From: Bacteroidota bacterium
GTDB taxonomy: Bacteria > Bacteroidota > Bacteroidia > Cytophagales > UBA9547
Assembly: GCA_004293915.1 (NCBI GenBank)
Contig: RDZG01000075.1
Span: 1 to 52,453 of the forward strand
Direction: 5' to 3'
DNA: 52,453 nt
The notes beneath the pieces were generated by a model. It ran no database searches, was not told the DNA's origin, and worked only from the letters and a program-made list of their open reading frames with translations. Position numbers and translations under genes: made by a program. This document shows positions 1,229 through 52,401 of this stretch, in pieces; positions within the stretch are counted from its first letter, which is position 1; each line of letters begins with the position of its first letter.

Positions 1229-1888
1229 ATGAAATCTAATATCTTACCGCTTCAAACCGAAACCTATTATCATATTTATAACAGAGGTATCAATGGAGAA
1301 GATATATTTAAAGTAGAAACAAATTATTCATATTTTTTAAACAAATATGCTAAATATATTCCTGTTGTTGCTCATACCTATGCTTATTGTTTACTAAAAA
1401 ATCATTTTCACTTATTAATCAAAACCAAAACAGCTGATGAGATAAAAGATTTCGTTTCTACTAAAACGCAGACTGAAACGCAGACAGGGTTTGAGACCCT
1501 GTCTGCGTTAGAAACAGGAATAAATATCTCCAATATTATCAGTAAACAATTTTCTGACCTATTTAATGGCTATGCCCAAGGCATAAATAAATCATTTAAT
1601 CGAACAGGAGCATTGTTTGAAACTCCTTTTCGTAGAATTTCCGTTAGTTCTGATGCTTATTTTTCAAATTTGGTTTCTTATATTCATACCAATCCAGAAA
1701 AACATGGTTTTATTAAAGATTTTAGAGATTATCAGCACAGTTCATATCATAGTCATATACTGAGTAAACCAACAAAACTAATGAGAGAGTCTGTAATAGA
1801 TTGGTTTGGAGGCGTAAATCAATATCAACAATTTCATTTAGAAAAAACGAATGATAAAATGATAAAAGAATTAATAATCGAGTTCTAA
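1229..1888 (+). CDS. REP-associated tyrosine transposase (RAYT, Y1_Tnp / IS200-like)
   Basis: A 219-residue single-strand DNA transposase of the HUH/Y1 type. The metal-binding HUH pair is in Lys-Asn-His-Phe-His-Leu-Leu-Ile (His59, His61), and the likely nucleophile is Tyr151 in Ser-Tyr-Ile-His-Thr-Asn-Pro, the position where RAYTs carry theirs. RAYTs nick and move REP palindromes; matching palindromes flank this gene at 1160-1192 and 1948-1980. Unusually, a third copy (1477-1509) lies inside the gene in frame and encodes residues about 83-94 (Thr-Glu-Thr-Gln-Thr-Gly-Phe), between the HUH strand and the next conserved helix (Asn-Ile-Ser-Asn-Ile-Ile-Ser-Lys). The frame remains open, so the protein may still work. 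Confidence 0.9.
   Translation: MKSNILPLQTETYYHIYNRGINGEDIFKVETNYSYFLNKYAKYIPVVAHTYAYCLLKNHFHLLIKTKTADEIKDFVSTKTQTETQTGFETLSALETGINISNIISKQFSDLFNGYAQGINKSFNRTGALFETPFRRISVSSDAYFSNLVSYIHTNPEKHGFIKDFRDYQHSSYHSHILSKPTKLMRESVIDWFGGVNQYQQFHLEKTNDKMIKELIIEF
1477..1509. repeat. REP-like palindrome, family 1, copy 3, inside the RAYT gene
   Basis: The same 33-bp palindrome, with one imperfect pair near the centre. It is preceded by a partial left arm at 1465-1474. It lies wholly within the transposase coding sequence and adds codons without a stop, in a segment that is a variable loop between conserved blocks. Confidence 0.85.
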
Positions 1889-2805: not shown

Positions 2806-5697
2806 ATGATTAAAAAATTTACCTTAATCGTAATTTTAAGCAGTTTAACATTTTTACTTTTTGCACAAAAAACAAAAGTAGTAGCATGGGGAGATAATAA
2901 TTCTGGACAAACCTCCATTCCAAATGGATTAACTTCTGTGGTTGGCATAGCTGCAGGATTTAATCATTGTTTAGCATTAAGATCGAATGGTACATTGTTG
3001 GCATGGGGAGATAATTTTTATGGTCAAAGCAATATCCCCAATGGTTTAGTTTCTGTAATCGGAATATCAGCGGGAGGTAATATATCTTCTTCAAATTCTG
3101 TTTCTCTTGCTTTAAAATCTGATAATACTGTAATAGCTTGGGGTGACAATACTTATGGACAAACAAATGTGCCATTAGGATTAAATTCTGTAAAAAAAAT
3201 ATCATCAGGTGGATTTCATGAATTAGCACTTAAATTTGACGGCACTATTATAGCTTGGGGTATTAATGCTTTAGGAATAACTTCTATTCCAGTAGTATTA
3301 AATTCTGTAATAGGAATATCTGCTGGATACTTGCACTCTTTAGCATTAAAATCTGATGGTACTGTTGTTTCTTGGGGATATGATTCTTATGGGGAAACAT
3401 CTGTACCCGGTTTATTAAATTCTGTAATTGATATTGCTGCAGGAAATAGCTTTTCAATGGCATTAAAATCAGATGGTACTGTTGTAGTTTGGGGTGATAA
3501 TACTTATGGACAAAAAAATATTCCTTTAAATTTAAACTCAGTTATCAAAATTGCCGCTGGAAATTCACATTGTATGGCACTGAAATCCGATGGTACAATC
3601 ATTTCATGGGGACAAAATACTTCTAATCAAACTAACGTGCCTTCAGATATCGGACCTGTATTTGAAATCAGTAGCGGTGGCTCATTTTCTTTAGCAATAA
3701 TGAATTATAATACACAAACTATCACTGGCTTTAATTTCATTCCCAACACCTTAGCAGGGTTTAGTTTTACATTCCCAACCACAGCTACTTCTAGTTTAAC
3801 TATAGATTATTCTTTTAAAACGTCAGTAGATAATTTTAGTAGCAGCTATAATATTTCTGGCAATACTTTTTCTTATAGTGATTTAACAAATGCTATTGGT
3901 GCAAGTAATAATGTAGTTACAGTTACTGTTAAAGCCATACAAAATGGAAACAATACTTATGCAGCAGCAACAGAAATAGAACAAACTTTTGTAGTTTCTA
4001 AAATCACACAAACTATCACTGGCTTTAATACCATTTCCAATACATTAGCAGGGTTTAGTTTTATATTCCCAACTACCGCTACTTCGGGTTTAACTGTAGA
4101 TTATTCTTTTAAAACTTCTGTAGATAATTTTAGTAGTAGCTATAATATTTCTGGTAACACGTTTTCTTATACCGATTTAACAAATGCTATCGGAACTAGT
4201 AACGATGTGGTTACAGTTACGGTGAAAGCTATGCAAACTGGAAATAACACTTATGAATCAGCTACAGAAATAGAACAAACTTTTGTGGTTTCTAAAATCA
4301 CACAAACTATCACTGGCTTTAATACTATTTCCAATACTTTAGCAGGGTTTAATTTTACATTTCCATCTACTGCTACTTCGGGTTTAGCTGTAGATTATAG
4401 TTTTAAAACCTCAACAGATAATTTTGCAAGCAGTTATAATATTTCTGGCAATACTTTTTCTTATACTGATTTAACAAATGCTATTGGAGCTAGCAATAAT
4501 GTAGTTACGGTTACGGTAAAAGCTATGCAAATTGGAAATAATACTTATGCAGCTAAAGAAGTAGAACAAACTTTTGTAGTTTCTAAAATCACACAAACTA
4601 TCACAGGTTTTAATGCAATACCCAATCAAATAACTTTAAATGTACCTTTGACACTTACTGGTAGTTCCAGTTCAGGTTTGGCAGTAACTTATACTGTTTA
4701 TAATTCTGAAAATAGTGGCAGTTTTGTATTAAATTCAAATGTCGTTAATATGGGTGATTTTGGGCAGAATATTAGTTTTCCTGCTTTAGACATTGCTACC
4801 ATTAGTATTACAGCCAATCAAATTGGTAACGCTATTTATGCAGAAGCTTTGCCTGTAACTCAAACTTTTACACTCTCACAAGCAAACCCTACTATTACAG
4901 GGTTTGAACAAATCCCTCCTCAAAAATTTGGAAACAATCCATATCAACTTAATTTTAGAAGTACTGCAACAAATTATAGTGTAGCGGTATCTGGTGGACC
5001 TGCTTTTTATGATAATGCTAGAGAAATACTTTATTTTTTTGGAGGTGGAGTGGTTACATTATCTGGATTTAGTGGTAATGATTTTTATCACAAGGAAGTT
5101 AGACTAGTTCAATACATCACAGTAACTGGTTTTGATGAGGTATTGTCTTTACTTGGCGTTGGTACAAACTTAACCAAAACGCTTAGTACAAATCCAACAG
5201 AAATGCAGGTTCAAAATTTTGCTTCTAATTATGTTATTAATATTCAAACCAATTGCAAATGGCAAGTTGCTACTAATACCGATGCAAATTGGTTGAGTAT
5301 TAGTCCTACTTCTGGCACGGGCAATAGTTTTATCAATATCACAACCGAAACCAATGCTTTAGCCACTAATCGTGTGGCAACTCTTTCTATTACAGGTTGC
5401 ACTTCCTTACTTTCTACCTTTACTTTAACTCAAAAAGCAAATCCAATATTAAGTATCGAAGAAACTAATACGGTAAAAACAAGCGTTTATCCTAACCCAG
5501 TTACTAATGGAGAAACTTTTGTAATTGAGAATGCAGAATGGAGAATGGATAATGATTTGATGATTTATAATGCTCAAGGAACTGTAGTTTATTCGCAAAA
5601 GCTAGTTTCTGAAACCACTGCAATCAATGCTAATTTGGCTAGTGGTATGTATTTAGTAAAAGTGGGTAAACAAATGATTAAGTTGATGGTGGAGTAA
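2806..5697 (+). CDS. Secreted RCC1-repeat / BACON protein with T9SS sorting domain
   Basis: A 963-residue secreted protein. A signal peptide (residues 1-21, ending Phe-Ala-Gln) is followed by about eight RCC1-like blades (25-300), each with Val-x-Ala-Trp-Gly-Asp-Asn and Ala-Leu-Lys-Ser-Asp-Gly-Thr. Then come about five beta-sandwich repeats starting Thr-Ile-Thr-Gly-Phe near residues 306, 404, 502, 599 and 696; the first three are near-identical at protein and DNA level. A BACON-type domain (about 808-880, with Trp-Leu-Ser-Ile-Ser-Pro) and a type IX secretion C-terminal domain (Tyr-Pro-Asn-Pro-Val ... Gly-Met-Tyr-Leu-Val-Lys-Val) finish it. RCC1 propellers and BACON domains bind proteins or glycans, so cell-surface adhesion or binding is a fair inference. 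It stands alone, followed by a terminator. Confidence 0.88.
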   Translation: MIKKFTLIVILSSLTFLLFAQKTKVVAWGDNNSGQTSIPNGLTSVVGIAAGFNHCLALRSNGTLLAWGDNFYGQSNIPNGLVSVIGISAGGNISSSNSVSLALKSDNTVIAWGDNTYGQTNVPLGLNSVKKISSGGFHELALKFDGTIIAWGINALGITSIPVVLNSVIGISAGYLHSLALKSDGTVVSWGYDSYGETSVPGLLNSVIDIAAGNSFSMALKSDGTVVVWGDNTYGQKNIPLNLNSVIKIAAGNSHCMALKSDGTIISWGQNTSNQTNVPSDIGPVFEISSGGSFSLAIMNYNTQTITGFNFIPNTLAGFSFTFPTTATSSLTIDYSFKTSVDNFSSSYNISGNTFSYSDLTNAIGASNNVVTVTVKAIQNGNNTYAAATEIEQTFVVSKITQTITGFNTISNTLAGFSFIFPTTATSGLTVDYSFKTSVDNFSSSYNISGNTFSYTDLTNAIGTSNDVVTVTVKAMQTGNNTYESATEIEQTFVVSKITQTITGFNTISNTLAGFNFTFPSTATSGLAVDYSFKTSTDNFASSYNISGNTFSYTDLTNAIGASNNVVTVTVKAMQIGNNTYAAKEVEQTFVVSKITQTITGFNAIPNQITLNVPLTLTGSSSSGLAVTYTVYNSENSGSFVLNSNVVNMGDFGQNISFPALDIATISITANQIGNAIYAEALPVTQTFTLSQANPTITGFEQIPPQKFGNNPYQLNFRSTATNYSVAVSGGPAFYDNAREILYFFGGGVVTLSGFSGNDFYHKEVRLVQYITVTGFDEVLSLLGVGTNLTKTLSTNPTEMQVQNFASNYVINIQTNCKWQVATNTDANWLSISPTSGTGNSFINITTETNALATNRVATLSITGCTSLLSTFTLTQKANPILSIEETNTVKTSVYPNPVTNGETFVIENAEWRMDNDLMIYNAQGTVVYSQKLVSETTAINANLASGMYLVKVGKQMIKLMVE

Positions 5698-51819: not shown

Positions 51820-52401
51820 ATGGGATTTGCATATACTATAAAAGATCAAGGTGCAACATATTTTGTAACATTTACAGTACATCAGTGGGCAGATGTTTTT
51901 ACTAAAGAAATCTATATTGATGAATTATTAATGAGCTTAAAATATTGTCAAGAAAACAAAGGTTTAGAAATTTTTGCGTGGGTAATAATGAGCAATCATT
52001 TGCACATGATTGTTAGAGCAAAAAATGAAAATTTGAGTGATATAATTCGAGATTTTAAAAAATATACTTCAAAATCAATATTCAACAAAATTATGAATAA
52101 CGAAAAAGAAAGCAGGAAAGAGTGGTTGTTGAAAGTTCTCAGTTTCAATGATAAAATTGAAAGCAGGAAAGAGTGGTTGTTGAAAGTTCTCAGTTTCAAT
52201 GATAAAATTTGGTTTTGGGAGGAGGGCTATCATGGAGAAGAGATTTTTACTTCAGCCTTTTATGATACAAAGGTAAATTATATACATTTGAACCCAGTAA
52301 GAGCAGGAATTGTAGAAAAAGAACAAGAATATATAAATAGTAGTGCGGGAGAGTTTTATGGAATTAGAAAGAGTAAATTAAATTTATGTACTTTTGGTTG
52401 A
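51820..52401 (+). CDS. REP-associated tyrosine transposase (RAYT) with internal 51-bp duplication
   Basis: A 193-residue RAYT. The HUH pair is His60/His62 in Ser-Asn-His-Leu-His-Met-Ile-Val, and the likely nucleophile is Tyr154 in Asn-Tyr-Ile-His-Leu-Asn-Pro-Val-Arg-Ala-Gly, the clearest RAYT signature. Residues 97-130 contain the 17-residue unit Glu-Ser-Arg-Lys-Glu-Trp-Leu-Leu-Lys-Val twice, from an exact DNA duplication; a single copy would give about 176 residues, closer to the usual size. The gene is bracketed by 38-bp inverted repeats containing a palindrome of its own, distinct from that of the RAYT at 1229. The duplication lies between the HUH and Tyr parts and may or may not impair catalysis. 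Confidence 0.92.
   Translation: MGFAYTIKDQGATYFVTFTVHQWADVFTKEIYIDELLMSLKYCQENKGLEIFAWVIMSNHLHMIVRAKNENLSDIIRDFKKYTSKSIFNKIMNNEKESRKEWLLKVLSFNDKIESRKEWLLKVLSFNDKIWFWEEGYHGEEIFTSAFYDTKVNYIHLNPVRAGIVEKEQEYINSSAGEFYGIRKSKLNLCTFG
52108..52209. repeat. Exact 51-bp tandem duplication in the RAYT gene
   Basis: 52108-52158 and 52159-52209 are identical over all 51 bp, beginning GAAAGCAGGAAAGAG. Full identity means a recent event or an assembly artefact; it keeps the frame. Confidence 0.95.

Follow-up and report, generated by a model that had tools for sequence, protein, structure and literature searches.

An in-frame REP-like palindrome within a RAYT-like transposase gene of a Bacteroidota bacterium and its counterparts in related RAYT genes

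The sequence analyzed in this study (contig RDZG01000075.1 of a Bacteroidota bacterium, 52,453 nucleotides in length, hereafter referred to as the window) encodes a transposase-like protein whose gene is surrounded by palindromes and contains a further palindrome within its own coding sequence. This raises the question of whether the internal segment was acquired as an element, is maintained as a functional part of the gene, was exchanged between repeats of the locus, or represents ordinary coding sequence. To our knowledge, the mobilization of REP elements by RAYTs and its mechanism have been demonstrated only in part. A RAYT gene repeatedly catching REP-like copies represents a natural record of insertion events, in which the footprint (33 nt), the frame, the junction, and co-copied tails are readable from the sequence.

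The RAYT-like gene and its internal palindrome

The gene (positions 1229–1888, plus strand) encodes a protein of 219 amino acids and was recognized as a REP-associated tyrosine transposase-like (RAYT) gene based on profile, fold, and structure-model evidence. Its translation features the HUH motif NHFH (1400–1411, plus strand) and the catalytic tyrosine Y151 embedded in YIHTNP (1679–1681, plus strand), i.e., an HUH motif together with a single catalytic tyrosine and NP (class 2, Y---NP), and residues N58, H59, H61, Y151, and N155 were found to be invariant in an alignment of 56 RAYTs. The scores obtained with NCBIfam NF047646 (44.2 bits, E-value 1.6e-11; cut-off 80) and Pfam Y1_Tnp (16.8 bits; cut-off 23) remained below the respective cut-offs, marking the protein as a distant member by these models, and the term “RAYT-like” is therefore used here.

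The predicted structure of the protein (mean pLDDT 91.5) showed its top PDB fold match to 4er8, the TnpAREP of E. coli (E-value 3.9e-7, TM 0.50 by query), followed in rank by the ISDra2 and IS608 transposases, and 4er8 was also the sole sequence match in a profile search (E-value 1e-6). In the fold alignments, 4er8 and the IS200/IS605 transposases (2vjv and 2xma), being the best matches, share 14–16% identity with the window protein, and their chains comprise 125–165 residues compared to 219 here; the loop insertion is presumably absent from them. In the model, beta 3 corresponds to residues 59–66 and the long helix C to residues 100–122, with two extra helices (69–82 and 88–95) located in between. 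Residues 81–100 form the sole inner stretch of low confidence (block means of 63 and 70), and the residues encoded by the palindrome lie within this stretch, between beta 3 and helix C.

The internal palindrome AACGCAGACAGGGTTTGAGACCCTGTCTGCGTT (1477–1509) is 33 nt long and contributes 11 codons in frame and without a stop. The initial annotation had placed these additional codons between the HUH strand and the next conserved helix, with both catalytic motifs kept, and the translation confirmed this arrangement. It had also regarded the segment as a full copy of the palindrome surrounding the gene; the 14 outer pairs are indeed perfect, but the centre of the internal copy is imperfect. A partial extra left-arm copy (1464–1476) is seen in the sequence immediately 5' of it. 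Members of the same family flank the gene upstream (1153–1199, with 23-bp arms and the core AACGCTGACAGGG, one compensated pair apart from the core of the orthologue described below) and downstream (1948–1980), and repeat and genome searches revealed further copies at 397–429 and 2731–2763. The upstream copy overlaps the final 9 nt of the ORF at 670–1161, and two degenerate left-arm copies in tandem (1905–1947) are visible 5' of the downstream palindrome. The window segment is hence an in-frame copy of the 33-bp REP-like element that flanks the RAYT gene. As single-stranded DNA, the region 1470–1516 is calculated to fold at −17.8 kcal/mol (z −10.1), and as RNA, the region 1440–1560 is calculated to fold at −36.8 kcal/mol (z −6.3).

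The palindromes flanking the gene are repeated elsewhere in the genome. In total, 15 places with at most two mismatches were detected, and the copy within the RAYT gene was the only one falling, in our judgement, within a convincing gene; some of the other places are located in short or repeat ORFs that were judged to be spurious. Beyond the partial left-arm repeat, the internal copy was not seen to share tails with the copies elsewhere in this genome.

The nearest orthologue found, L009 of the same-genus genome G005 (97% amino acid identity; its contig is that of L036, a Cytophagales MAG record), carries the palindrome at the same place, which implies that the insertion took place before the two genomes diverged. 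The DNA of the two genes is 0.955 identical outside the loop; the internal copies differ by one base near the centre, and a 12-nt indel is located at the palindrome's 3' edge. The expectation that close homologues lack exactly this segment thus fails for L009, but finds some backing in the Runella RAYT L037 (59% identical to the window RAYT), which possesses a sister palindrome, AACGCAGGCAGGG, in its downstream region but lacks an internal copy. The L037 loop between NHFH and ISNQF comprises 35 residues, 11 fewer than the 46 of the window RAYT; since the loop is hypervariable, this agreement with the length of the insert could be luck. None of the relatives compared provided an exact empty site corresponding to the internal copy of the window, L037 being suggestive only.

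Palindromes in the corresponding loop of other RAYT genes

Related genes were collected by means of a 19-row profile search of 291 genomes of the order (94 matching) and 395 genomes of the phylum (90 matching), the two sets overlapping. The nine initial loci all bear names that we take to be those of Bacteroidetes organisms, and the larger searches were confined to the order and phylum of the window. A part of the listed matches yielded 226 distinct ORFs, of which 207 were retained as full-length and 19 were dropped as partial. Within the 207 ORFs, 52 inner palindromes were detected, 47 of them between HUH and Y, one before, three after, and one unplaced. Codon-shuffled RAYT ORFs contained 0.85 inner palindromes per set of 207, and chance palindromes are ruled out by this comparison.

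Altogether, 46 palindromes were assigned to the loop, including two in the tandem copies of L097, while the palindrome of L114, which falls between HUH and Y yet at a great distance from the loop, was excluded; 14 of the 207 ORFs, in which the pattern used did not recognize an HUH motif, could not count as loop cases. Since the loci were obtained with a profile built on this family, from match lists of limited length of which only part was taken, the value of 46 among 207 does not represent a prevalence. Across 206 loci, the palindrome density amounted to 0.331 per kb in RAYT ORFs (42 in 127.0 kb), 0.020 per kb in other ORFs of at least 150 amino acids (7 in 357.9 kb, counted as called by the program), and 1.265 per kb in the remaining sequence (212 in 167.6 kb), 20 palindromes on class borders being excluded. 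RAYT ORFs accordingly contained approximately 17-fold more palindromes per kb than neighbouring ORFs.

The loop palindromes belong to many families. For 37 of the 46 cases, a palindrome was also found within 800 nt outside the ORF, whereas none was detected there for the other nine. Among these 37 internal copies, 26 matched a flank at ≥0.8 of the arm, whereas dealing the flanks to other genes in 200 shuffles gave 5.9 matches on average and never more than 12; the remaining 11 were unlike the palindromes beside their own gene. The same loop of other RAYT genes thus holds other palindrome families, in the majority of cases those of the respective flanks. The commonest length of the flank palindromes was 33 nt (132 out of 287), and an element length divisible by three would offer a simple reason for insertions that keep the frame. 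On a tree of 157 of the 207 RAYTs, calculated with the loop excluded by a quick method under a simple model, at least 21 presence/absence changes of the loop palindrome were counted. Relatives differ in both the presence and the sequence of the loop palindrome, and some copies decay.

Sequences adjoining the palindromes provide further evidence. In genome G002, the home of L015, the palindrome occurs at 12 places within two mismatches, seven of them of an AACCC type and five of an AACTC type. All seven AACCC-type places, the internal one included, feature a similar 5' tail and a TTCC-/TCCC-type 3' tail, and five of the six non-internal ones reside on the RAYT's own contig; the five AACTC-type places possess a related tail. 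Because the internal copy bears the tails of the dispersed copies, it represents a true element insertion in this genome, and the unit that entered or left the gene was longer than the 33-mer. In L097, approximately 40 nt of the 5' tail are common to three outside copies and the internal copies, with little being shared on the 3' side. Clearly shared 5' tails were seen in L097 and L015; that of L064 is explained by an upstream RAYT fragment, and weaker similarities in L021 and L118 were not used. As for the copies outside the RAYT genes in G312, the genome carrying L097, either no ORF of 120 codons encloses them or the enclosing stop-to-stop frames were judged to be spurious. In the draft genomes G279 and G492, the internal copy is the sole copy within two mismatches, suggesting that internal copies may persist after the rest of the family has disappeared, or may be carried along with the gene. 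The palindrome within L018 of G006 is unlike its own flanks, yet further copies are present in the genome.

As a separate observation, L097 (G312:C165) consists of a tandem pair of RAYT genes, which are bordered by palindromes and both contain palindromes themselves. On the 5' side of the intact copy, its loop seems to contain repeat units that are older and degenerate.

Taken from these sequence comparisons, the explanation that we consider probable is that REP-like elements have repeatedly been inserted and renewed at a loop of the RAYT gene where they are tolerated, the element usually being that of the RAYT itself. RAYT-type single-strand cleavage and joining would move the element, preferentially near its own gene, and selection would purge insertions that stop or misfold the enzyme; survivors would then be encountered in this loop and in frames giving an acceptable peptide. 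As the cognate palindrome changes, new copies would replace or join old ones. Less in keeping with this explanation are the internal copies that match no flank or have no palindrome outside, the solitary internal copies of G279 and G492, and, for the window, the failure to find common tails or an exact empty site. Internal copies of the first two kinds may have been inserted by another RAYT of the genome (compare L018 in G006), or the flanks may have changed later. Self-insertion at a tolerated loop had already been proposed in the initial annotation; the flanking family, the low-confidence loop, and the similar situation in relatives speak for this site, whereas the part played by the RAYT itself is what we infer.

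Constancy of frame and junction, and possible exchange between palindromes

The loop palindromes are read in the same frame in 37 of 45 cases compared to 20.8 expected, a value reached in none of 20,000 simulations (the two L097 copies were counted once, and common descent makes the counts non-independent); 39 of the 45 have more than one open frame. When distinct arms only were considered, 25 out of 33 shared the frame compared to 14.2 expected, again in none of 20,000 simulations. The frame is far more constant than predicted by stop avoidance alone. The distance between the centre of the palindrome and the asparagine codon of helix C was exactly 66 nt in 15 of the 45 and 75 nt in eight of the 45, and another five palindromes, all from one genus, are located at 78 nt; the simulation covered the frame only, and these junction values are raw counts that are not independent of descent. 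Relatives on the tree, such as L071, L074, L075, L078, L080, and L083, carry different palindromes at 66 or 75 nt. In L010, L011, L018, L068, and L122, the palindrome occurs at other positions or in other frames. Among 28 copies occupying the recurrent slot (24 distinct; at 66, 75, or 78 nt), 96.1% of the cells were paired and 14 of 16 pairs had changed on both sides, these counts likewise depending on descent. This pattern would result from refilling of the slot with fresh copies or, alternatively, from maintenance of the pairing. The insertion explanation accommodates the constant frame only by adding a peptide filter, a target preference, or descent.

One rather doubtful conjecture is that RAYT genes of the Bacteroidota possess a slot beside helix C that is repeatedly refilled with the currently recognized palindrome, the frame being constant and one junction being favoured. 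If this held true, the gene would carry its own substrate as a built-in address or switch co-evolving with the enzyme. It seems unlikely to us that the gene retains and renews the internal palindrome as one of its components, i.e., that a hairpin formed by the slot, as mRNA or as single-stranded DNA, exerts control over the enzyme or serves as its address and tracks the cognate palindrome. The paired cells and two-sided changes, the shared frame with its recurring distances, and the tree neighbours with different palindromes in nearly the same slot would all be in line with such a role, as would L148 and L151, whose palindromes differ by one compensated pair and a centre base, despite a gene identity of 0.749 outside the loop. 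However, the covariation would equally be produced by the repeated insertion of ready-made palindromes. Moreover, unpaired changes were detected in L049 compared with L048 (gene identity 0.940) and in three of five orthologues of the genus g173 (L077, L079, and L082; those of L073 and L076 are perfect), and such changes among close orthologues argue against strong selection for the hairpin. Finally, 161 of the 207 ORFs are without a loop palindrome at the thresholds used (14 of the 207 being not judgeable).

Ordinary recombination between the palindromes of a locus, or template switching, could also have exchanged the copies in place of the RAYT, a scenario that we regard as improbable. It would agree with L064, which is preceded by the 5' half of a RAYT gene ending at its own palindrome copy, with L262, whose RAYT is lost after the loop palindrome, and with L097 as a tandem duplication having palindromes at its borders. 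However, an exchange needs a palindrome that is already present in the loop, and recombination therefore cannot start the process; the deviating positions and frames in L010, L011, L018, L068, and L122 look like separate insertions. Of 16 loci chosen for partial matches, six are broken in the loop (L025, the upstream gene of L064, L261, L262, L263, and L264), but a palindrome is located at the break in only two of them (upstream gene of L064, and L262), none being seen in L025, L261, L263, and L264. Among the others, L265, L267, and L271 are broken elsewhere, L268 is without a start, L266, L269, L270, L273, and L274 are apparently whole, and L272 is ambiguous. As a possible source of RAYT gene breakage, the palindromes are thus suggestive only.

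That the segment is ancestral coding sequence being palindromic by accident is highly improbable: many slot peptides share a pattern just before helix C (DLTGFENLSGL, TLQGFKTLGGF), but the codon shuffling, the match between internal copies and flanks, the element tails in G002, and the differing sequences and positions among relatives, tree neighbours included, speak against it and led to its rejection.

Comparison with known systems and further repeats in the window

Recurrent insertion of REP-like elements into a RAYT gene, as favoured here, has a precedent, since an internal REP in such a gene is already known in kind from another subclass. According to the available portion of the study by Quentin et al. 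2018 (PMC6006769), REP insertions that preserve the frame of tnpAREP genes and generally fall between HuH and Y are unique to subclass 2.4, some members of subclass 2.8 have a REP insertion, and these insertions were judged to be possibly of little impact on activity. The same portion describes REPs with GT[AG]G feet and the motifs NH[IFV]H, WQ, and YIxNNP for subclass 2.4, and atypical palindromes without GT[AG]G, mostly Bacteroidetes hosts, SS after the Y motif, the motifs NH[LIV]H, WQ, and YIH[QN]NP, and 21 inserted residues separating helix C from beta 4 for subclass 2.6 (PMC6006769).

Like subclass 2.4 as portrayed there, the window group features an in-frame REP between HuH and Y and a variable region between beta 3 and helix C; unlike it, the palindromes are devoid of GT[AG]G feet. 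These were found in 14 of 287 flank palindromes and one of 46 internal palindromes compared to 53 of 621 random windows, i.e., not above random, and a GT[AG]G-type REP is thereby ruled out. With regard to the motifs of subclass 2.4, NHFH fits, but FE, residing at the place of WQ in 4er8, and YIHTNP do not. Like subclass 2.6, the group is without GT[AG]G and has SS after the Y motif (S171–S172 in the window RAYT; 148 of 158 RAYTs), yet NHFH, FE, and YIHTNP provide no exact fit to its motifs. Because subclass 2.6 traits are combined with a 2.4-like insertion and the motifs fit neither exactly, the window group was assigned to neither subclass. The constant frame, the recurring junction, the turnover among relatives, and gene breakage at palindrome sites are not described in the available portion of PMC6006769. 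The new parts are the palindrome type, the frame constancy, the recurring junction, and the turnover. A literature search at the level of titles and abstract openings, in which subscription journals were thinly covered, yielded no report of such insertions in this group.

Palindromic repeats within coding sequences are also represented by the Rickettsia palindromic elements, which, according to the accessible part of PMC3733652, reside in frame within protein genes. They resemble the window case in this respect, but are hosted by various ORFs, whereas here the gene of the presumed mobilizing enzyme is concerned. Short copies of GTAG/CGTC REPs lying wholly within ORFs are described in the same source (PMC3733652, accessible part); copies inside ORFs are common to both cases, but the palindrome families and target genes differ.

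Several further repeats were observed in the window and in related genomes. The segments 393–481 and 1944–2032 (within 341–488 and 1944–2039, respectively) are 94% identical over 89 nt and comprise the palindrome and a 3' tail, the latter seeming to contain a second imperfect palindrome (about TTGTCAA...TTGACAA), possibly forming a REPIN-like pair. A second palindrome family, AGACTTTCCAAG, is present at 516–548 and is identical to the palindrome inside the RAYT L018 of the same-genus genome G006. An array of four copies of the window palindrome, spaced by 133, 119, and 119 nt with similar sequence in between, was found in L239 (1773–2176, G000:C145). Downstream of the RAYT gene, a 21-nt unit resembling GTTAAGTATGGCACATTnAAC is repeated in tandem approximately 11 times over 2034–2299, the array being open as repeat peptides on both strands. 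The region 2806–5697 encodes a protein of 963 amino acids with AWGDN.YGQ-type repeats, which we take to be RCC1-like; after these, three repeats of 294 nt are found, of which the second is 87% and the third 79% identical to the first. At the opposite end of the contig, a second, very distant RAYT-like match was detected at 51967–52350 (E-value 3.2e-5).
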